37,281 nucleotides of DNA, from positions 1 to 37,281 of IMG/VR virus record IMGVR_UViG_3300030522_000010. One strand, 5' to 3'. Positions 3,167 to 28,392 of the stretch are shown piece after piece. Position 1 is the stretch's first letter, and each line of letters opens with the position of its first letter. A model generated the notes under the pieces. It saw nothing but the letters and a program-made list of their open reading frames with translations, did no database searches and was not told the DNA's origin. The stretch is from a virus. The translations under genes were made by a program, and so were the position numbers.

Positions 3167-4354
3167 TCAGGTCTGATGGGTCAGCACGTAATCTTCACCG
3201 CGCTTTCCAGCGGTGGACGCCACGGCATTGCGGGCGGTCATGTCCTGAGGTTTTTGCTTGGCCATCCATTCCCGCTTTTTCTCCTGTGACCATTCGCCAG
3301 GAGGCAGAGGGCGCAGTTGCGGATCCACGCGCAGGAAATAATCCTTGAATGTGCCATCTGGTTCCGCTGTGGAATTAACCACCTCGACCATTACCAGCGG
3401 TTCATCGCCCGGCTGCTCTTTGAGCCAGAGCTTTCCGTAGTCGTCGGAATGGACGAGCTTTGCCCCAGATTCCTTGATGTAACGATCCATGCCGAACTTC
3501 TCAACCATGACCCGCCGCACCTCGGCATTGCGCTCCTTCTCGATCTGCGAAACCTTAATCGTTTCCGGTTCCTCGGCGATCTGCTGGGTGATCCGCACCC
3601 CGCGATGGAAGAAATATTTTTCCTCCGTGTTGGGCCAGTAAACGGCGGGCGCTCCAACAGCATGCAAGCGCGAGCGGTCGTCGATTCCTAATACCGGCCG
3701 CTCCACTGCAATAACGCTATCGGGGGTGATCCAGTAGAGCCACAAACCCGCTTCGAAAGCATCGAGCATCGGCCGCTCGATTTCTCCGAATTTGCGGACC
3801 GCAGCGGGCGCTCCCGGCAGCGACCCAACGGCGGCCCTGGCGGCGTCCCAGGCGGCGTCCCTGGCGGCGTCCCAGGCGGCGTCCCAGGCGGCGTCCCAGG
3901 CGGCGTCCCTGGCGGCGGCCCATGCGGCGTCCCTGGCGGCGGCCCTGGCGGCGTCCCAGGCGGCGTCCCTGGCGGCGTCCCAGGCGGCGTCCCTGGCGGC
4001 GGCCCAGGCGGCGTCCCTGGCGGCGGCCCTGGCGGCGTCCCAGGCGGCGTCCCTGGCGGCGTCCCTGGCGGCGTCCCAGGCGGCGTCCCTGGCGGCGGCC
4101 CAGGCGGCGTCCCAGGCGGCGGCCCTGGCGGCGGCCTGGCCGCGACTATGGCACAGCTCGATGACGTATTTAAAACCGTCACCAAAATTCGGGCGCCAGA
4201 TGAACTGGCGCCCGGGCTGACCCAGCAGCTCAAGGTGCGCGTTTACTGAATCCTCGATTCGTTTCCGATTCTTGGCCGGTACGGGCGTGGAATAATCCAG
4301 CGCTTTCAACCGATCAATGATCGCCTGCGTTGTTGGGGGGAACGCGGTAGCCAT
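3167..4354 (-). CDS. DUF6745-family protein with long alanine-rich tetrapeptide repeat
   Basis: A 395-residue protein. The N-terminal ~70 residues and the C-terminal ~215 residues match what I recall of DUF6745: conserved-looking parts are LELLGQPGRQFIW, LHAVGAPAVYWPN, FFHRGVRI, NAEVRRVMVEKFGMDRYI, and MVEVVNSTAEPDG followed by YFLRV. Between them, residues ~73-175 are about 25 four-residue units of the form [A/D]-A-A-[R/W], encoded by a 12-nt tandem repeat. The ATG at 4352-4354 was chosen because MATAFPPTTQAI lies directly after the stop of the upstream gene (4356-4358); a longer frame to 4444 would overlap that gene extensively. The function of DUF6745 is unknown to me. Its partner upstream (4356-4682) is also a conserved family of unknown role. 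Confidence 0.8.
   Translation of the reverse strand: MATAFPPTTQAIIDRLKALDYSTPVPAKNRKRIEDSVNAHLELLGQPGRQFIWRPNFGDGFKYVIELCHSRGQAAARAAAWDAAWAAARDAAWDAARDAARDAAWDAARAAARDAAWAAARDAAWDAARDAAWDAARAAARDAAWAAARDAAWDAAWDAAWDAARDAAWDAARAAVGSLPGAPAAVRKFGEIERPMLDAFEAGLWLYWITPDSVIAVERPVLGIDDRSRLHAVGAPAVYWPNTEEKYFFHRGVRITQQIAEEPETIKVSQIEKERNAEVRRVMVEKFGMDRYIKESGAKLVHSDDYGKLWLKEQPGDEPLVMVEVVNSTAEPDGTFKDYFLRVDPQLRPLPPGEWSQEKKREWMAKQKPQDMTARNAVASTAGKRGEDYVLTHQT
3830..4140. repeat. 12-nt GC-rich minisatellite (about 25 units)
   Basis: On the + strand this is a run of GGCGGCG[T/G]CCC[A/T]-type 12-mers. On the coding (-) strand each unit encodes four residues, with two variable positions: GAC or GCC (Asp/Ala) and TGG or AGG (Trp/Arg). 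A seven-unit (84-nt) block is duplicated almost exactly (units 9-15 and 16-22, differing in one unit), which points to expansion by slippage or unequal recombination. Nearly all six frames stay open across it, giving long low-complexity shadow ORFs. Confidence 0.95.
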
Positions 4355-4355
4355 A

Positions 4356-4682
4356 TCAATCTTGAACGTTGCGGATTTCCTCGGGGCTGTATTCGCGCTG
4401 GATGTCCACCTTGTAGAATCCGGGATCCAGCAGGATCGGGGCATGCTCTTCGTGCGTGAGCGCCGCGATCGCTTCCGCGACCTCGATGTAGGTGGCCTGA
4501 GTCTCGGGATGGCGAAACACTTTCACCTTCCCTTTGTGGATCGCGTGGTGATGGCCGGTGACTTCGCCGTAGGCGAGCACCACCTTACCTTTCACGCGCT
4601 GATTTTTGACGCCCTTCGGCAGCTTATCGATACGCTCCAAGAGCACATCACCTTGACGGAACAACTTTGGTTTATTTTGCAT
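4356..4682 (-). CDS. Conserved RQGDVLL-type small beta protein
   Basis: A 108-residue protein of a family I recognise by sequence but not by function: FRQGDVLLERIDKLPKG, VLAYGEVTGHHHAI, a strand-rich middle, LTHEEHAPILLDPGFY and finally REYSPEEIRNVQD. The His cluster in GHHH and the HEEH motif are typical of the family, and a metal or ligand role is conceivable. A strong ribosome site (AGAAGGAG, 6-7 bases before the ATG) precedes it, as expected for the first gene of a transcript or translational unit after the 4683-4995 gap. The DUF6745 gene follows at once. Confidence 0.75.
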   Translation of the reverse strand: MQNKPKLFRQGDVLLERIDKLPKGVKNQRVKGKVVLAYGEVTGHHHAIHKGKVKVFRHPETQATYIEVAEAIAALTHEEHAPILLDPGFYKVDIQREYSPEEIRNVQD

Positions 4683-18097: not shown

Positions 18098-20148
18098 TGA
18101 AACGCATTCCCCCTGACATACAAAACCGCCCCGCCGGAGGGCAGTCCAAAGCCGCTGCAGCGGCATCCGGCGCGCTTTCCATTCTGGACAAGAAACTCCA
18201 GGGCAAGGTCACGGTGGACCGTCCTTTTCGGAAATCCTTCGAGGATTTTCTAAATTCGGATGCCAGGGTCCCGATCGGCGGAGGTGAATACGGAAAATAT
18301 TCTTTCGAGGGTCGGGAAGCCATCCTGGAGATCGTCCGGATCATTGATCATGTCCTGGCCAACAAGGTGGAAGACGCCCAGTTGGCGATCGCCGGCGGCG
18401 CCCAATGGGGCAAGACCATCCTGGAACTCAACTTTGCGGCCTACGCGACGAGCCATCCCTTTTTCAATTTCGGGCTATTCCTCCCGGATAACGACCTGGT
18501 GGCGGGTGTCATCGATACCAAGTTCCGTCCGGATGTCATCGACCAGATTCCCTGGTTTTCGGAGATGGTGAAAGTCGGCAAGGCCGTCAACAAATCAGGC
18601 AAGGCCGTTGACCGAAAGGGAGCTTTTGTTGTCACGGATGGACATCGCCGAGCCAATGGCTTGGCCATCGGATTACAGAAGATTCCGACGACCTTCACCT
18701 TGGACATCGCGGCGATGGATGAGGTGGACGACATCCCGGAGAAAAACGCCAAGTTCGTCCGTGGTCGTCTGACATCATCCAAGCTGCGATTTATCCTGCG
18801 CATTGGCACTCAGCGTGTTCATGGGCGCGGGCAAGAGCAGGCGTGGAAGAACGGAAGCCAAGGCGTGCTGGAATTTCTGGGCGTCAATCCGGAGGAGGCA
18901 TTCCCGGGCATTGTTCGGTGCGCGGTTTCCAAAGTCCCGCGCCGCGATGATCCCAAGCTCACCTGGGCGGGAGACTTCCGCCGCGAAGGATCCGAGGAAG
19001 TCGTGGCCGTCCATCATCCGGACAATCTTTATTATCTGGCGCATCCGAAGACCGGCGAAGTGATGGATCGGAACCGGCCGGAATTGCGGCATCGCAGGCC
19101 GGAGAGGATCGAGGAAGATAATTATTCTGTCCGGGTATCCCAGCTTTCGATCGGCGCGATCGGGCTCCGGCAGATTATCGGGCAATTCCAGCTCGCGGTC
19201 AAAGATCCGGACGAAATGGTCGTCTTCCGTTGCGACGTGCTGGCGTTGCCTCAAAGCACGGCCCAGGCGCTGACTCCCGAGGTTATCGCACGGTCTCAGT
19301 CGGTTGATCCCTTTGAAATGAGGATGGCGCCGATCGAGGAGCGAACGGTCTTCGGAGGATTGGATACCGGCGATCGCTGCTATTTCTTTGCGCGGGAGCG
19401 TCAGACGGCGGCGCGTAAGCGGATGATCTATGCTGCCACGATTCCGGCAGGTGATCTGGTTCGCCGTGTGCCTGGTTTATTCGATCAGATGGGCATGCAG
19501 TGCCTCTTCATCGATCAGCGGCCACTTGTCAGCCAGGCGCGCACCATTGCGCTCATGGTCAATGGCCTGTCCGATCTTAAGGATTGGCCGCAGGATCCGG
19601 AAGAGAAGGATTTCATTTCGCTTCCAGGCGGCTTGGCCTGGACGGGTTCTCGCTGGACCGGGTTGCGCTGTGCCGTTGTTCGGTTCGACAAGAAAAATAT
19701 CGGCGCCGGCGTTGAACACGGGTTCGACCTTTTCGAGGAAGACGGGATCAAAAAGTTTGTCCCGCTGATCCGCTGCAATCGATATGAAACGATTGATCGC
19801 GCGGTTCGGGAATTTCTAACCCCGGCCGAAAGCATCGTGGATGTCGCGGATGGGAAAGTACGTGAGCTGCCCGCGATGTTACTTCCGCGCAAGAACAGCG
19901 GGAAGATCCTGGAAGAGGTCGAATCCCATCTGATCACCGGCAGCGAACGCGGAAAAGAGAAAGACGGCAATCTCGGGGATTACGTCGACCAGTGCGCGAA
20001 CCACTTTCTTTTGGCGGACGGCTACAGCGCCCTCGCCGAAAACGAAGGAAGCCGACCTTCCGTCGTCTCGGGTTTTTTCATGCCGAAATCTTTACCGCGT
20101 GGAGGCGGCCGTCAGGTGGACCGGCGTGACAGGAGCTGTGTGGCATGA
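18097..20148 (+). CDS. Terminase large subunit (Mu gp28-like)
   Basis: A 683-residue packaging motor. The N-terminal ATPase has Walker A GGAQWGKT (residues 100-107) and Walker B DIAAMDE (203-209, Asp208/Glu209). The C-terminal half should be the RNase H-like nuclease that cuts headful concatemers or, in transposable phages, integrated copies: candidate acidic positions lie in FGGLDTGDRCYFF and LFIDQRP. The ATG at 18097 overlaps the upstream stop. The same frame is open back to 17515, but that part overlays the DUF3486-like gene. Length is about 130 residues above Mu gp28. Confidence 0.88.
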   Translation: MKRIPPDIQNRPAGGQSKAAAAASGALSILDKKLQGKVTVDRPFRKSFEDFLNSDARVPIGGGEYGKYSFEGREAILEIVRIIDHVLANKVEDAQLAIAGGAQWGKTILELNFAAYATSHPFFNFGLFLPDNDLVAGVIDTKFRPDVIDQIPWFSEMVKVGKAVNKSGKAVDRKGAFVVTDGHRRANGLAIGLQKIPTTFTLDIAAMDEVDDIPEKNAKFVRGRLTSSKLRFILRIGTQRVHGRGQEQAWKNGSQGVLEFLGVNPEEAFPGIVRCAVSKVPRRDDPKLTWAGDFRREGSEEVVAVHHPDNLYYLAHPKTGEVMDRNRPELRHRRPERIEEDNYSVRVSQLSIGAIGLRQIIGQFQLAVKDPDEMVVFRCDVLALPQSTAQALTPEVIARSQSVDPFEMRMAPIEERTVFGGLDTGDRCYFFARERQTAARKRMIYAATIPAGDLVRRVPGLFDQMGMQCLFIDQRPLVSQARTIALMVNGLSDLKDWPQDPEEKDFISLPGGLAWTGSRWTGLRCAVVRFDKKNIGAGVEHGFDLFEEDGIKKFVPLIRCNRYETIDRAVREFLTPAESIVDVADGKVRELPAMLLPRKNSGKILEEVESHLITGSERGKEKDGNLGDYVDQCANHFLLADGYSALAENEGSRPSVVSGFFMPKSLPRGGGRQVDRRDRSCVA

Positions 20149-21746
20149 AGACGCGATCCAAAATCAAAGCCCATAAATCCCATGCCTTGCGTAATCGCAA
20201 GCCGCAGACCGGCCAATTTATCTCCGGTTCCGGAGCCACCATGGGGCAGCGCATCAATCGCGCAAACCGTTTTCGGGAAACTTATAATCCCCTGCGCAAC
20301 CTGACGATCTCTCGGGCCGTCAGCCTGATCGAATCATATCCACGCGGAGAGTTCGCGGATCTGATGTGGACTTTCGGCGCGCCATTCATGGGAATTGAGT
20401 GCGCGGATCCGGATCTCCTGGCGCTGATCGAGCGCCGCACCGGCGCGATCTGCGAGATGGACTGGAACATCAAGACAGTCGACGAAGACCGCGCGGACTT
20501 TGACCAGAAGCTGGCGGAGGAACAGCAGTCGGCTCTACGCGAACAGTATGACGGCATCGGAAATCTTTACGAGGCGTTTGATCACCTGGCCATGGCGACA
20601 TTCAGAGGATTCAGCCACAACGAGAAAATAGAAAACGCCGATGGGGACATCACCGAGCTGCGCGTTGTGGATCAGTGGAACGTGGTGAGGGATGGATCGA
20701 CCGGCGGTTGGAAATACAATCCCGATGCGCGGCAAACCAGCTACGAATCTTTGCCAGCATCGGCGATCCTAGATCCGTCTTTCTTCCTGATTCGTGAAGT
20801 TAAACGCCCGGTCAATCGATACGCACTGATCAAGGCCATCCGCAACAATTTAGCGGACAAGGACTGGGATGCTTTCATTGAAATCTATGGGATTCCCGGA
20901 TGGGTGATCATCGGGCCGCCGAATGTGCCGGCAGACAAAGAGAGTGAATACGAATCTTCCGCTGGAGATGTGGCGCGCGGGGGTAGCGGGTTCCTTCCCC
21001 ATGGCAGCGACGCAAAGCCCAGCGACAGCCCGCGCGGTGCTGAACCTTTTAGCGCTCGCTTAAATTATCTTTCTCAAAAGCTCATATTGGCAGGAACGGG
21101 CGGCCTTCTGACGATGCTCACACAAAGCGGGAGTGGCACGTTGGCCGGCAGCGCCCACATGGAAGCGTTCAAAACTCTGGGGCGCGCAGAAGCGCGGGAT
21201 ATTTCCGAGATCTTGCAGAAGCAGTTGGATGCGCCGTTCCTGGAGAAGAAATTCCCCGGCCGCTCGGCGCTGGCCTATTTCGAGCTCGCCTCCAACCAGG
21301 AGATCAAGGTCAGTGAGATTTTAGATCATGCGGCCAAGGCCAGTCAGGCCGGATTCCAGATCGATCCGGATGAATTGTCCGAAATGACCGGATACACGCT
21401 GACGGTGAAGCCGGCGGCGCCGGCGCCTCAGTTTGGAGTGTCTCCGATGGAAAACCGGCGGTTGATGAATCGCCGTGCTCCGTTGTCCACCCAGTTTGTG
21501 ATGCAGGCCCGGAAGCTTTTGGCTTCGGACACATCTTCGGATCTGAAACCGATCCGCGCCCGCATCGAGCAAATCCTTCAATTGAAGGATGAGGATCTCC
21601 AAAGGGCGATGGAAAAGCTGATGGCGGATTTGCCCGCAATTCTAAAGCAAATCAACGCGGATCCAAAAGCCGCCGAGGCATTGGAAAAGATTCTCGGGTC
21701 AGCTCTGGCGGAAGGAATGACCAAAAAACCGGAGGAAGTTGTATGA
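20145..21746 (+). CDS. Portal protein (DUF935, Mu gp29-like)
   Basis: A 533-residue portal protein. DUF935 hallmarks: RTGAICEMDWNIKTV, FEAFDHLAMATFRGFSHNEK-like segment, WNVVRD, LIREVKRPVNRYALIKAI, DWDAFIEIYGIPGWVI, and the helical SAHMEAFKTLGRAEARDISEIL-type core. It forms the dodecameric DNA channel at the head vertex. The N-terminal ~30 residues are basic. It overlaps TerL by ATGA (20145-20148) and the next gene by 4 bases. Confidence 0.9.
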   Translation: MKTRSKIKAHKSHALRNRKPQTGQFISGSGATMGQRINRANRFRETYNPLRNLTISRAVSLIESYPRGEFADLMWTFGAPFMGIECADPDLLALIERRTGAICEMDWNIKTVDEDRADFDQKLAEEQQSALREQYDGIGNLYEAFDHLAMATFRGFSHNEKIENADGDITELRVVDQWNVVRDGSTGGWKYNPDARQTSYESLPASAILDPSFFLIREVKRPVNRYALIKAIRNNLADKDWDAFIEIYGIPGWVIIGPPNVPADKESEYESSAGDVARGGSGFLPHGSDAKPSDSPRGAEPFSARLNYLSQKLILAGTGGLLTMLTQSGSGTLAGSAHMEAFKTLGRAEARDISEILQKQLDAPFLEKKFPGRSALAYFELASNQEIKVSEILDHAAKASQAGFQIDPDELSEMTGYTLTVKPAAPAPQFGVSPMENRRLMNRRAPLSTQFVMQARKLLASDTSSDLKPIRARIEQILQLKDEDLQRAMEKLMADLPAILKQINADPKAAEALEKILGSALAEGMTKKPEEVV

Positions 21747-23684: not shown

Positions 23685-24623
23685 ATGAGCAAACGCAAAC
23701 AAGCATCGGCTAATCCGACGCTGACAAATTACGCGACGGGAGTTGCCCAGGACCTGGAAAGCAGCCTGGCGGAATTCATCGCGCCGACGGTTGAAGTGCC
23801 CAGCACGCTGGGGCAGTTCAAGAAATTCGACGACAAAAACGCCTTCCAGGTCTATGAAACGGCGCGCGCGGTCGGCGGCTCGGCCAACCGCATCGAGTTC
23901 GAAACCACCGATCCCAGCTACAACTGCAAACCGCAGGCGCTGGAAATCACGGTGGACGATTCCGAACGCGACGCGGCCGACGCCGAAGACCCGATCCGTT
24001 TGGACGAGTCCAAGGTGAAGACGCTGGTGACGACTTCGTCGGTCAGCCACGAGTACAAGGTGATCAACAAGACGATCGGCGCGTTGACGCCGGTTGCCGA
24101 CCTTGGCAACTGGTACGATCCGAACGTCGACCCGATCGAGGAAATCGATTCGCAGATCCAGGTGATCGCGACCAACACCGGCATGATGCCCAATGGCTTG
24201 GCCATCGGTCTTCCGGCCTGGGCGGCCATCCGCAAACACCCCAAGGTGATTGCCCGGCAGCCGGGCGCAGCTCTGATCGGGCTGACGGTCGGTCAGTTCG
24301 CCGCGATGTTGCTGAACCCGGGCATCGAGGTGCGCGTGGGCATTCTTGCCCGCGACACCACGAAGATGGGCAAAGCGGCCGCGAAAGTGAATATCGTGGG
24401 CGCCAACGTCCTGATCTTCCTGCGGTCCAAGAATCCGACGCAGTATGACCCGAGCTTCGCCAAGTCCTTCACCGGACGGCGAGGCGGCGTCACCTCTGTC
24501 CGGACCTACCGCGAAGAACCCTTCAGCGATGTCCACTTGGTGGACTGGTCCGAGGACATCCAAATCACCAGCACGATCTGCGGAAAGCTGATCGCGGTGG
24601 TGACCGAAGATCCGGGTTCCTAA
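23685..24623 (+). CDS. Major capsid protein (HK97 fold, gpT-position)
   Basis: A 312-residue protein. The size and position, after protease and decoration genes, are those of Mu gpT-like capsids. Segments EVPSTLGQFKKFDDKNAF, ATDPSYNCKPQALEI-type strand, DSQIQVIATNTGMMPNGLAI, GLPAWAAIRKHPKVI and the closing CGKLIAVVTEDPGS resemble bacterial and phage E-type HK97-fold capsid proteins. A purine-rich leader (AAGAAAGAAATTAAGAAAAC) lies directly before the ATG. It should be the most abundant virion protein. Confidence 0.85.
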   Translation: MSKRKQASANPTLTNYATGVAQDLESSLAEFIAPTVEVPSTLGQFKKFDDKNAFQVYETARAVGGSANRIEFETTDPSYNCKPQALEITVDDSERDAADAEDPIRLDESKVKTLVTTSSVSHEYKVINKTIGALTPVADLGNWYDPNVDPIEEIDSQIQVIATNTGMMPNGLAIGLPAWAAIRKHPKVIARQPGAALIGLTVGQFAAMLLNPGIEVRVGILARDTTKMGKAAAKVNIVGANVLIFLRSKNPTQYDPSFAKSFTGRRGGVTSVRTYREEPFSDVHLVDWSEDIQITSTICGKLIAVVTEDPGS

Positions 24624-24684: not shown

Positions 24685-25131
24685 ATGAGCTGGATCACCA
24701 TCACATCCGACGACGTCCTGACCCGTCTGGCCGGCGCTGAAAAAGCCTCCTACCAAAACGCGGCCAGGGCTTCCGGCCAGAGCGACCCATTGCCGGAGAT
24801 CATCGCCCAGGTTACCGATGTCGTGCGCGGGTATGTTGCTGCCTGTGCCGCGAACGAACTGGACATCGGCGGTACGATTCCACCGCGTCTTCTCGCCGCT
24901 GCGGTGGATATCATCCGGTACCGGCTTACAACGCGACTACCGCTGACTCTCACGGCCGCTCGCGAACAGGAATACAAGGACGCGATCAGCTTATTAAAGG
25001 ACGTAGCGGCTTGTAAATTCTCGGTGGAAGATCCGAACAGCTCCGATCCGGAAACCAGCAGCCAGTCCAGCACACCGGCTATCTGCCCGAAAAATCTGCA
25101 TTTTGATCGGCGCGATCAGGAGGGTGCGTGA
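24685..25131 (+). CDS. DUF1320 head-completion protein (Mu gp36-like)
   Basis: A 148-residue protein. The DUF1320 pattern is clear: SDDVLTRLAGAEKASYQNAA, then an AQVTDVVRGYVAACAANELD stretch, PPRLLAAAVDIIRYRL and REQEYKDAISLLKDVA. These proteins, next to the capsid gene, form head-tail connector rings. The last ~35 residues are Ser/Pro-rich and variable. The stop overlaps the ribosome site and start of the next gene. Confidence 0.85.
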   Translation: MSWITITSDDVLTRLAGAEKASYQNAARASGQSDPLPEIIAQVTDVVRGYVAACAANELDIGGTIPPRLLAAAVDIIRYRLTTRLPLTLTAAREQEYKDAISLLKDVAACKFSVEDPNSSDPETSSQSSTPAICPKNLHFDRRDQEGA

Positions 25132-25967
25132 TGTTCACTGCACTTCGCATCGGGGATTACACGGAAAAGGCGCGTGTGAGCGCGTTGCAACGTGGGATTG
25201 AAGCCATTGGCGGAAAGGTGATCTGGCATCCGAAAAACGATCTTGATTCCATCCGGGATATTTTGGAATCGCGCAAGATCCGCTTTGCGTTCACCCATGG
25301 TGCCAAGGAGCGGGAATCCGCCGTACGGGGATTCTTGAAAGGCCATGGCATTCCGCTTTTGATCACCGAGCTGGGATATTTTCGCAGATCCGCAGACGGG
25401 AGTGATCCTCTGGGATATACCCAGCTCGGAATCGATCGGCTTTGCTGGACACCCGCGCGCGCGTGCGATTCATCCCGGTTTGATGCCCTAAAAATCGCGG
25501 TTGCCGCACGCAAGAAAGAAAATCCGAAAGGTGCGGTTCTGATTCTCGGACAGGTGCCAAACGACACGCAGCATTGGCTGTCTCATCAGGCATTGTCGGA
25601 ATGGCTCAGTGTGCGGGCTGGTTATTATCTGGGGCAACGCCGAAAAGTCTATTACCGGGCGCATCCAAAATTCTATTCACTCCAGCTAAAAGCTCCCGTG
25701 GATAAGCTGGATTCGTTGTCCGTTCCTCTGGGAGAACATCTCAAACTTGCTTCCCGAGTCATCACCTACAATTCCACGGGCGGGCTTGAAGCGCTCTGTC
25801 ATGGGCTTCCTGTTGAATGCCACACCTCGGCGCATTACGCGCAGGTTGCGCGAGGAACCCGAGACGAAATCTTAGCGCACTTTCACAAGCTCGCATGGTC
25901 GCAGTGGACCATCCAAGAACTTGAAGACGGAACCGCTTTGAAATTCATGGAGGAATTTTTACCGTGA
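25131..25967 (+). CDS. GT-B/capsule-type glycosyltransferase-like protein
   Basis: A 278-residue protein resembling capsule-polysaccharide/Kdo-type transferases (Pfam PF05159 group, from memory). Motifs: VLILGQVPNDTQH (residues 137-148), KVYYRAHPK (172-180), and SRVITYNSTGGLEALCHGLPVE (SRVITYNSTGGL at 208-219, then EALCHGLPVE), the nucleotide-sugar-binding end. The ATG at 25131 has AGGAGG 7 bases upstream; a GTG at 25128 would be too close. It lies in the head operon, overlapping DUF1320 and the next gene. It might glycosylate a virion protein or act on the cell surface. Confidence 0.72.
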   Translation: MFTALRIGDYTEKARVSALQRGIEAIGGKVIWHPKNDLDSIRDILESRKIRFAFTHGAKERESAVRGFLKGHGIPLLITELGYFRRSADGSDPLGYTQLGIDRLCWTPARACDSSRFDALKIAVAARKKENPKGAVLILGQVPNDTQHWLSHQALSEWLSVRAGYYLGQRRKVYYRAHPKFYSLQLKAPVDKLDSLSVPLGEHLKLASRVITYNSTGGLEALCHGLPVECHTSAHYAQVARGTRDEILAHFHKLAWSQWTIQELEDGTALKFMEEFLP

Positions 25968-26890
25968 ACTTCTCCACGCCTATCCAGTTCCTGGAAGCCA
26001 TCACTCAGGCCGAGGAGAGAGATCTTTTGCCTTTGCCCTTGTCTTCCGAGGAAATCCGCGAGCAGCTGAGTTCGGAGATCCGGACCCGGTCCATTTTTTC
26101 AGCCCGCACTACGAACGGCGCCTACGTCGATAAAATAGGCAAGGTTGTCGAACGGTTGCTTTCGCCTCAGACCGAAAGCGGGCAACGAGTTTCCTTCGCG
26201 CAGATGCGCGAGGATCTGCAGGGCATGCTGCAGGAGTTGGGGTATGATCCGGAGCGCGGCTTCCCAGGTGACGATGAATTGGGCATCCCGCCGGCTGCGC
26301 CCGGATCTCTCCGCGACCTGGGCAGCGATCAGCGCCTGAACCTCCTTTTGGAAACCCAGGTGCGGCAGATGCTCGGCGCCGGTTACCGGATTGCCGGTCA
26401 GGAACCGCTCCGCCTTGAAGCGTTTCCCTGCTGGGAGCTGGTCCGAATCTACGATCGAAACCTGGAACGAGATGACTGGTCCAAGCGTTGGCAGGAAGCG
26501 GGCGGCCAATTCTTTGACGGCGGCCGTATGATCGCTCGCAAAGATGATCCGGTATGGGACGAGCTCGGATCATCCGCGAATTTTGACGACGGCCTGGATA
26601 ATCCTTATCCGCCTTTCGCTTTCAACAGCGGAATGGGCGTCATCGAAGTGGACCGGGACGAGGCCATTGAACTGGGCGTCATAGCAGAAGACGAGCAAGT
26701 CGGAGAGATCCCGGTTGAACTCAACAAGGAGTTGAAGGCTCAGGCGGGAAAATTTGGCGATGACATTTTGGCCGAGCTCGAACGGGAGCTTGGAAATGAA
26801 GCCAGCCGCTTAATTACAAATCGTGGTGTGGATAAAAATGAAGGCTTACGCAACCGTCTGCGGGCTGTTTTGGAGGTGCTGCCGGCATGA
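25964..26890 (+). CDS. Minor head protein (head-morphogenesis type)
   Basis: A 308-residue protein. The middle (QVRQMLGAGYRIAGQEPLRL, CWELVRIYDRNLERDDWSKRW, ARKDDPVWDELG, then NPYPPFAFNSGMGV) fits the internal minor head proteins related to Mu F/SPP1 gp7, which carry a PPFxFNSG-like stretch. N- and C-terminal parts are helical. In Mu this gene directly follows the portal; here it lies after DUF1320. It probably enters the head and associates with the portal. Confidence 0.65.
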   Translation: MNFSTPIQFLEAITQAEERDLLPLPLSSEEIREQLSSEIRTRSIFSARTTNGAYVDKIGKVVERLLSPQTESGQRVSFAQMREDLQGMLQELGYDPERGFPGDDELGIPPAAPGSLRDLGSDQRLNLLLETQVRQMLGAGYRIAGQEPLRLEAFPCWELVRIYDRNLERDDWSKRWQEAGGQFFDGGRMIARKDDPVWDELGSSANFDDGLDNPYPPFAFNSGMGVIEVDRDEAIELGVIAEDEQVGEIPVELNKELKAQAGKFGDDILAELERELGNEASRLITNRGVDKNEGLRNRLRAVLEVLPA

Positions 26891-27504: not shown

Positions 27505-27701
27505 ACCGTCCTTGTTTCAAGGTGATCGATTTTAAGGTCGAGGTGCTTCCGGATAACCAAGTCGTTACGGCGGTGTTCCTGCACGAAGGCCAATCGTTTC
27601 ACTTCAATTTGGAAAAGAGCCTGGCTCTCTCGTTATCCGGCGCGTTGGAAGACGCCTATCGGAAGCTGCAGAACCCTCAAATGGAGGCCAGCCATGGATG
27701 A
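27501..27701 (+). CDS. Small hypothetical protein
   Basis: A 66-residue protein (CFKVIDFKVEVLPDNQVVTA, then VFLHEGQSFHFNLEKSLALS, then a short helix) that predicts a small beta sheet closed by a helix. It lies between the gpG-like and tail-terminator-like genes and overlaps the latter by 8 bases, so coupled expression is likely. No family recognised. Confidence 0.65.
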   Translation: MNRPCFKVIDFKVEVLPDNQVVTAVFLHEGQSFHFNLEKSLALSLSGALEDAYRKLQNPQMEASHG

Positions 27702-28392
27702 TTTTTTAACAAGGCTCCAGCTCGACATCGTGGGAAGACTCGATAGCCATCCGTTTTTTGCGGAGATTCCCGTGCTTGCCCAGGTCAAAGGCGACATCGA
27801 GAGCGACATTGAAACCGCGCTCAGTGTTTTTAACGAAAAATCGCCCGGTAAAATCGGCCTTGTGGTGATCGTCTTGCCGCCACTAGCCGATGTACCCGAT
27901 CCGAATGTTCCTGGCCCTGTTTTCAATGTGCTGAGTGCGGTTCGCGTTTTGGATCAACCCTCCATCCGCAACATTGAAGTAACCGGCCCGCAATGTTGTC
28001 TCTATGTGCACAGTGCGGTTCATCAAGTGCGCTTCTTCCCGCACGTAGGGCAGATATTCACGGACCGCCGCGCGATCGAGCCTTATGACACGGGTAAAGA
28101 TGGGGTCAATGGATATGACAATTTTTTCGCCAATCGGTTCGGTATCAAAGCGCCGGACAAGGTGAGGCGGCCGCAGATCTCCGGAACTGCGAGCGCGGTG
28201 ACAATCACCTCCGAAACCTCCGGAGCCCAGATCTACTACACCACCGACGGGAGTTATCCCTACGTGGGCAATGGGGAAGCAGAACTTTACACGGTGCCGT
28301 TCACCGTGGACGCCGGCACGGAAGTACGCGCCGGCGCGTACAAAGACAACATGACCCCGAGCGATATCGCATCGGAAACCATAGGAGCCTGA
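27694..28392 (+). CDS. Tail-terminator-like protein with a C-terminal adhesion-like domain
   Basis: A 232-residue protein. Residues ~1-150 (FLTRLQLDIVGRLDSHPFFA, GKIGLVVIVLPPLADVPDP, RFFPHVGQIFTDRRAIEPYD) fit a head-tail joining/tail terminator protein placed directly before the tail tube gene. Residues ~155-232 form a CHB_HEX_C-like beta domain (VTITSETSGAQIYYTTDGSY, YTVPFTVDAGTEVRAGAYKD), normally at the ends of secreted carbohydrate-active enzymes. The fused domain may decorate the neck or tail of the virion. Confidence 0.65.
   Translation: MDDFLTRLQLDIVGRLDSHPFFAEIPVLAQVKGDIESDIETALSVFNEKSPGKIGLVVIVLPPLADVPDPNVPGPVFNVLSAVRVLDQPSIRNIEVTGPQCCLYVHSAVHQVRFFPHVGQIFTDRRAIEPYDTGKDGVNGYDNFFANRFGIKAPDKVRRPQISGTASAVTITSETSGAQIYYTTDGSYPYVGNGEAELYTVPFTVDAGTEVRAGAYKDNMTPSDIASETIGA

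Follow-up and report, generated by a model that had tools for sequence, protein, structure and literature searches.

KpsC (GT107), WbbB (GT99) and KrkA (GT140) are capsule or O-antigen enzymes (PMC9587256, PMC12887879), and the elements QXXXD and (K/R)XHP are conserved across the GT99/107/140 families to which they belong (PMC12887879). The catalytic nucleophiles are D160 in KpsC and D232 in WbbB (PMC10148158, PMC9587256), while the general base of KrkA is supplied by another element (PMC12887879). Phage glycosyltransferase (GT) genes are known from the Corndog-type locus of mycobacteriophages, where an O-methyltransferase gene and three GT genes lie between the genes for the portal and the capsid protease (cf. 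PMC4351075). Proteins of infected cells included these enzymes, and those identified in the virion did not (PMC4351075). Glycans on the capsid and tail tube of mycobacteriophages have been reported, as cited in PMC12619734, and Maf-type flagellin glycosyltransferases place nonulosonic acids, Kdo included, onto Ser/Thr (PMC11339370). An earlier note on the DNA described here held that a virion-glycosylating enzyme would be unusual, but enzymes of such a kind are already known in the virion operons of mycobacteriophages.

The whole stretch of DNA that was analysed (the window) is an IMG/VR virus record of 37,281 bases with Mu-type structural genes, a PF10123 protease among them, as recognised by Pfam and PHROG matches. 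An S24-type repressor is encoded, and therefore the phage is suggested to be temperate. The genes with which this work is concerned are as follows.

20145..21746, + strand, Mu-type portal protein (PF06074, 7.2e-32)
23685..24623, + strand, major head protein (phrog_1005, 1.3e-42)
24685..25131, + strand, gp36 / DUF1320 head-tail adaptor, left border of the slot (PF07030, 5.7e-12; phrog_195, head-tail adaptor)
25131..25967, + strand, predicted GT-B glycosyltransferase, retaining beta-Kdo-transferase-like (PF05159 superfamily)
25964..26890, + strand, head-morphogenesis-like gene, right border of the slot (tblastn to Akkermansia phage proteins; kin alignment A5)

The "head morphogenesis" label of the gene 3' of the GT is the deposited annotation of its Akkermansia phage relatives. 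Elsewhere in the record, the tail-gene region (27694-28392) encodes a protein with a C-terminal Fn3_assoc / chitobiase C-terminal-like domain (PF13287, 3.8e-14), and the oppositely oriented left part encodes a DUF6745 protein (3167-4444, - strand; PF20530, 7.6e-38).

The GT reading frame (25128/25131-25967, + strand) is intact and encodes 278 amino acids. The gp36 stop at 25131 lies within TGATG, such that the GT ATG, with GGAGG just 5' of it, shares 1 nt with gp36; at the other end the GT stop and the GTG start of the head-morphogenesis-like gene have 4 nt in common. The frame, its quoted motifs and the overlaps with DUF1320 and the head gene, all given in the earlier note, are thus present in the sequence. 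No promoter or terminator stands out at these junctions (a scan for the sigma-70 consensus, which covers the sigma-70 type only, was at chance level), and a promoter and terminator of its own, by which a moron is recognised, were not found for the GT, both of its junctions being overlaps. Because of these overlaps the GT is probably co-expressed late with the virion proteins. Its codon usage resembles that of the neighbouring genes (scaled chi2 0.15) and its GC content of 53.5% is slightly below theirs; neither is distinctive, so a recent gain read from foreign codon usage or GC was rejected. Near the C-terminus of gp36 (24685-25131) there is a Ser/Thr-rich stretch (NSSDPETSSQSSTPA) which is a conceivable glycan site, but as a candidate acceptor it was uninformative, as the gp36 tail of the kin locus L006 is richer still and no GT-family match was found in the L006 record.

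Searches with the single GT sequence found no PHROG family, no PDB chain, no viral relative and no plasmid match, and the PF05159 (Capsule_synth) profile matched only residues 200-238 (22.3 bits against a gathering threshold of 20, E 1e-4). An alignment seeded with Caulobacter phage and podovirus proteins (25-26% identity to the GT) yielded 131 relatives in viral contigs, the one in L020 being 47% identical over nearly the full length, and the window GT falls in a well-supported clade with L020, L021 and L022. A profile search with this family also found KpsC (6.7e-8). The family appears rare in bacteria, mainly because only 3 of 369 gammaproteobacterial genomes, a single class, had a match (1 in a phage and 2 seemingly chromosomal, one of which adjoins a glycosyltransferase gene); a scan of genome contigs with a narrow pattern gave one GT-family locus, itself in a phage head module. 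Tandem GT-family paralogues were seen in L062 (1174-11383), L075 (2-2647), L093 and L099. Many of them have lost the aspartate of QXXXD or the histidine of HP, which suggests that the chemistry of these copies has diverged or changed.

An AlphaFold2 model of the GT built from 59 aligned sequences (pLDDT 94.7, pTM 0.89) had KpsC as its best PDB match (Z 16.1, rmsd 3.6 over 241 residues), followed by WbbB (Z 14.6) and KrkA (11.2). All top matches are retaining beta-Kdo transferases, with a clear gap to other GT-B enzymes at about 9; the polysialyltransferase 5wcn, with which the GT has the HP motif in common, was at background level (Z 8.6). The translation contains Q141-V-P-N-D145, Y174-Y-R-A-H-P-K180 and N214-S-T-G-G-L-E-A-L-C-H-G-L-P-V, and three elements could be placed against KpsC.

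25551..25565, + strand, QXXXD motif (Q141-D145), with D145 aligned with the KpsC nucleophile D160
25656..25667, + strand, RXHP CMP-binding motif (R176-P179), from the profile alignment with KpsC (PMC12887879)
25368..25370, + strand, E80, a candidate general base, opposite KpsC Glu66 in a weak stretch of the profile alignment

In the profile alignment GQVPND145 of the GT stands over DQTFND of KpsC, and the D160N and D160C mutant structures read N and C at this position. Both the Q and the D of QXXXD are kept in 33 of the 103 non-redundant family rows (all 33 of these keep the HP as well), and every one of the 103 has E or D at position 80. By its modelled fold and its motifs, the prediction that the GT is a CMP-ulosonic-acid-dependent glycosyltransferase is well supported. 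The proposal in the earlier note of a GT-B enzyme related to PF05159 and sialyltransferases, with profile and structure comparison as the check, was upheld by a PF05159 match above gathering and a predicted two-domain GT-B fold of KpsC/WbbB type, and could be narrowed by Pfam, model and profile to the retaining beta-Kdo transferase superfamily.

The GT gene is not part of the head operon by descent; it is optional cargo in a variable slot between gp36 and the head gene. The family was absent from the whole records of all 13 MCP kin (L004-L016; the positive control on known carriers gave 13/13). Further kin were gathered with profiles of the head-morphogenesis gene and the MCP, which led to 80 non-redundant kin loci where gp36 and the head gene were both present. 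The slot was empty (<120 nt from one gene to the other) in 48 of these loci and occupied in the remainder. The slot coordinates in the window and in four of the kin are as follows.

window 25128-25967
L014:7357-7572
L004:8643-9431
L012:9135-9635
L016:8537-8875

With these results, and with unrelated cargo in the slot elsewhere, the inference in the earlier note that the gene is not a moron is unsupported. The cargo includes the D12 DNA adenine methylase of L004 and four others in the set of occupants, and two Acb2/Tad1 hairpin proteins (E 1.7e-19 in L014, 5e-4 for the second). A formyltransferase (L158) and numerous small proteins of unknown kind also occupy the slot. In L158 (2167-4004) the occupants, by family tally and by eye, are an ABC/AAA-type and acetyltransferase protein and the formyltransferase (PF00551). 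Since recognised cargo is of the Acb2/Tad1 and DNA adenine methylase types, the small unknown reading frames in the slot are candidate counter-defence genes, and the gp36/head-gene slot of Mu-like phages is a place to look for new genes of this type.

Given that anti-restriction and Acb2/Tad1-type genes are among its cargo, position in the slot alone implies no virion modification, and the GT might instead serve in counter-defence, its sugar going onto phage DNA or a host factor so that a defence system is overcome. We consider this improbable, as the slot-mates of the GT relative in L174 are sugar enzymes and a methyltransferase of sugar/small-molecule type, and, as to glycosylation of DNA, no companion base-hydroxylating enzyme was seen among those window proteins that were scanned with Pfam. 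The L174 slot holds a GT relative (36% identity) with a Methyltransf_24-type methyltransferase, a DxD GT-A and a GT2, while that of L144 holds a relative (37% identity) with a GT-A and a GT2, and the GT-A proteins of both are 47-49% identical to a GT-A in L020. That phage is of another type, and its genes run (order partly by eye) from terminase through GT, methyltransferase, GT-A, portal and ClpP-like protease to capsid. As the window GT is nearer to that of L020 (47%) than to those of L174 and L144 (36-37%), we conclude that these genes pass from phage to phage at sites in structural operons. With larger cassettes in the same slot of these kin and the GT alone in the window, it might be asked if the GT is what remains of a glycan cassette, drifting or no longer functional, but this is very improbable for an open frame with all active-site motifs intact, ordinary codon usage and regular overlaps with both neighbours.

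Sixteen loci were PHROG-tested beside QXXXD-type relatives, and in nearly all of them a head, neck, portal or tail gene lies within about 3 genes.

L022, L023, L028 and L068: major head gene near the relative
L026, L076, L097 and L100: head-tail adaptor near the relative
L043, L051 and L080: head closure or neck gene near the relative
L021 and L030: tail gene near the relative
L063 and L087: virion structural gene near the relative
L020: portal about four genes off, terminase adjacent

A census of 138 family neighbours gave, as structural genes, major head proteins, head-tail adaptors and head closure proteins, and, as enzymes, methyltransferases, sialyltransferase-like proteins, GT8, GT9 and sugar aminotransferases; these neighbour counts, made without a random-position control, are descriptive only. 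Just 3' of the QXXXD-type GT in L027 (4311-4710) an O-methyltransferase is encoded which is 43% identical to Catdawg gp33 of the Corndog-type locus.

As relatives lie within the particle-building genes of many unrelated phages, decoration of the virion with sugar is the most likely role. Virion glycosylation by the GT is plausible and favoured by this genomic context, and the best explanation, to which we give about an even chance, is an accessory, late-expressed GT which decorates the virion with an acidic ulosonic sugar and is not itself packaged. Since capsule and O-antigen are what the characterised relatives act on, the main rival is modification of the host surface: during infection the GT would decorate LPS, O-antigen or capsule with Kdo or some other ulosonic acid and so block superinfection or keep progeny off debris. 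We regard both this activity and this benefit as rather unlikely: the two distant chromosomal-looking relatives, one of them beside a glycosyltransferase gene, and the temperate look of the window phage with its S24-type repressor would agree with it, but the GT has no promoter signal of its own and sits inside a virion-gene operon, where it is not placed for lysogenic expression, unrelated phages repeatedly have its relatives next to capsid and neck genes, and the cassettes resemble the Corndog-type virion locus. Against decoration of the virion stand the facts that the relatives studied biochemically have capsule lipid linkers, capsule or O-antigen and not proteins as their acceptors, that 2 of the 3 gammaproteobacterial matches are chromosomal-looking, that the window has a single GT and no companion enzymes, and that the Caulobacter phage relatives lie beside tail-fibre genes and, in the copies aligned, are without the nucleophile. 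Packaging of the enzyme in the head, also raised in the earlier note, was rejected as nothing supports it and the GTs of the nearest analogue were not identified among virion proteins (PMC4351075).

If the GT does decorate the virion, the accessory gene in the variable head-operon slot would yield a soluble GT-B enzyme made late, together with the virion proteins. From the fold and motifs it would take an acidic ulosonic-acid sugar, with CMP-Kdo from the host pool as the likeliest donor and a covalent sugar intermediate forming on D145 while H178-P179 hold the CMP. As acceptor, a structural protein of the capsid, neck or tail is likeliest, or else a sugar that such a protein already bears; as the window has one GT and no companions, the protein acceptor would be either glycosylated directly or pre-glycosylated by the host. 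Progeny would then be sugar-coated, presumably masking or stabilising the particle.

If this explanation is right, virion glycosylation would be no peculiarity of mycobacteriophages, and tailed phages would more widely achieve it by means of another enzyme superfamily. More tentatively, the GT may represent a mobile, largely phage-borne family with the retaining-Kdo-transferase fold, travelling between unrelated phages with a GT-A and often a methyltransferase, which coats capsids or necks with acidic ulosonic sugars. This would be a protein-directed, CMP-ulosonate-dependent branch of a superfamily for which all acceptors characterised to date are polysaccharides or lipid-linked. In the literature searched, which was not exhaustive, neither this exact class of enzyme nor its repeated presence in structural operons of phages appears to have been described. 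A simple test exists, as D-to-C mutants of KpsC and WbbB become Kdo-labelled on expression in E. coli.

Compared with known systems, the GT resembles KpsC, WbbB and KrkA in its predicted two-domain fold, QXXXD, (K/R)XHP and an acidic residue that aligns with KpsC Glu66, but is only 14-16% identical to them and differs in being a single short module of 278 amino acids, phage-borne and within a head operon, with Kdo as a putative donor. The Maf-type enzymes belong to a different fold family and no Maf gene was recognised in the window; PF01973 MptE-like genes, which we take to be tied to Maf-type glycosyltransferases, adjoin relatives of the GT in related cassettes. Hypothetical proteins of the Caulobacter phages CcrSC and CcrColossus (gp170/gp127) are of the same family at 25-26% identity and also lie beside other sugar enzymes, but near tail-fibre genes, and the D of QXXXD is missing in the copies aligned. 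The Corndog-type locus, like the window, has GT genes inside the virion structural operon, and its GT and methyltransferase cassette is like those of L020 and L174, whereas the window has one GT with no companion methyltransferase or further GTs in the slot. A profile search of Catdawg proteins gave no significant match to the GT family, and therefore the GT would work like the Corndog-type system without being a member of it.
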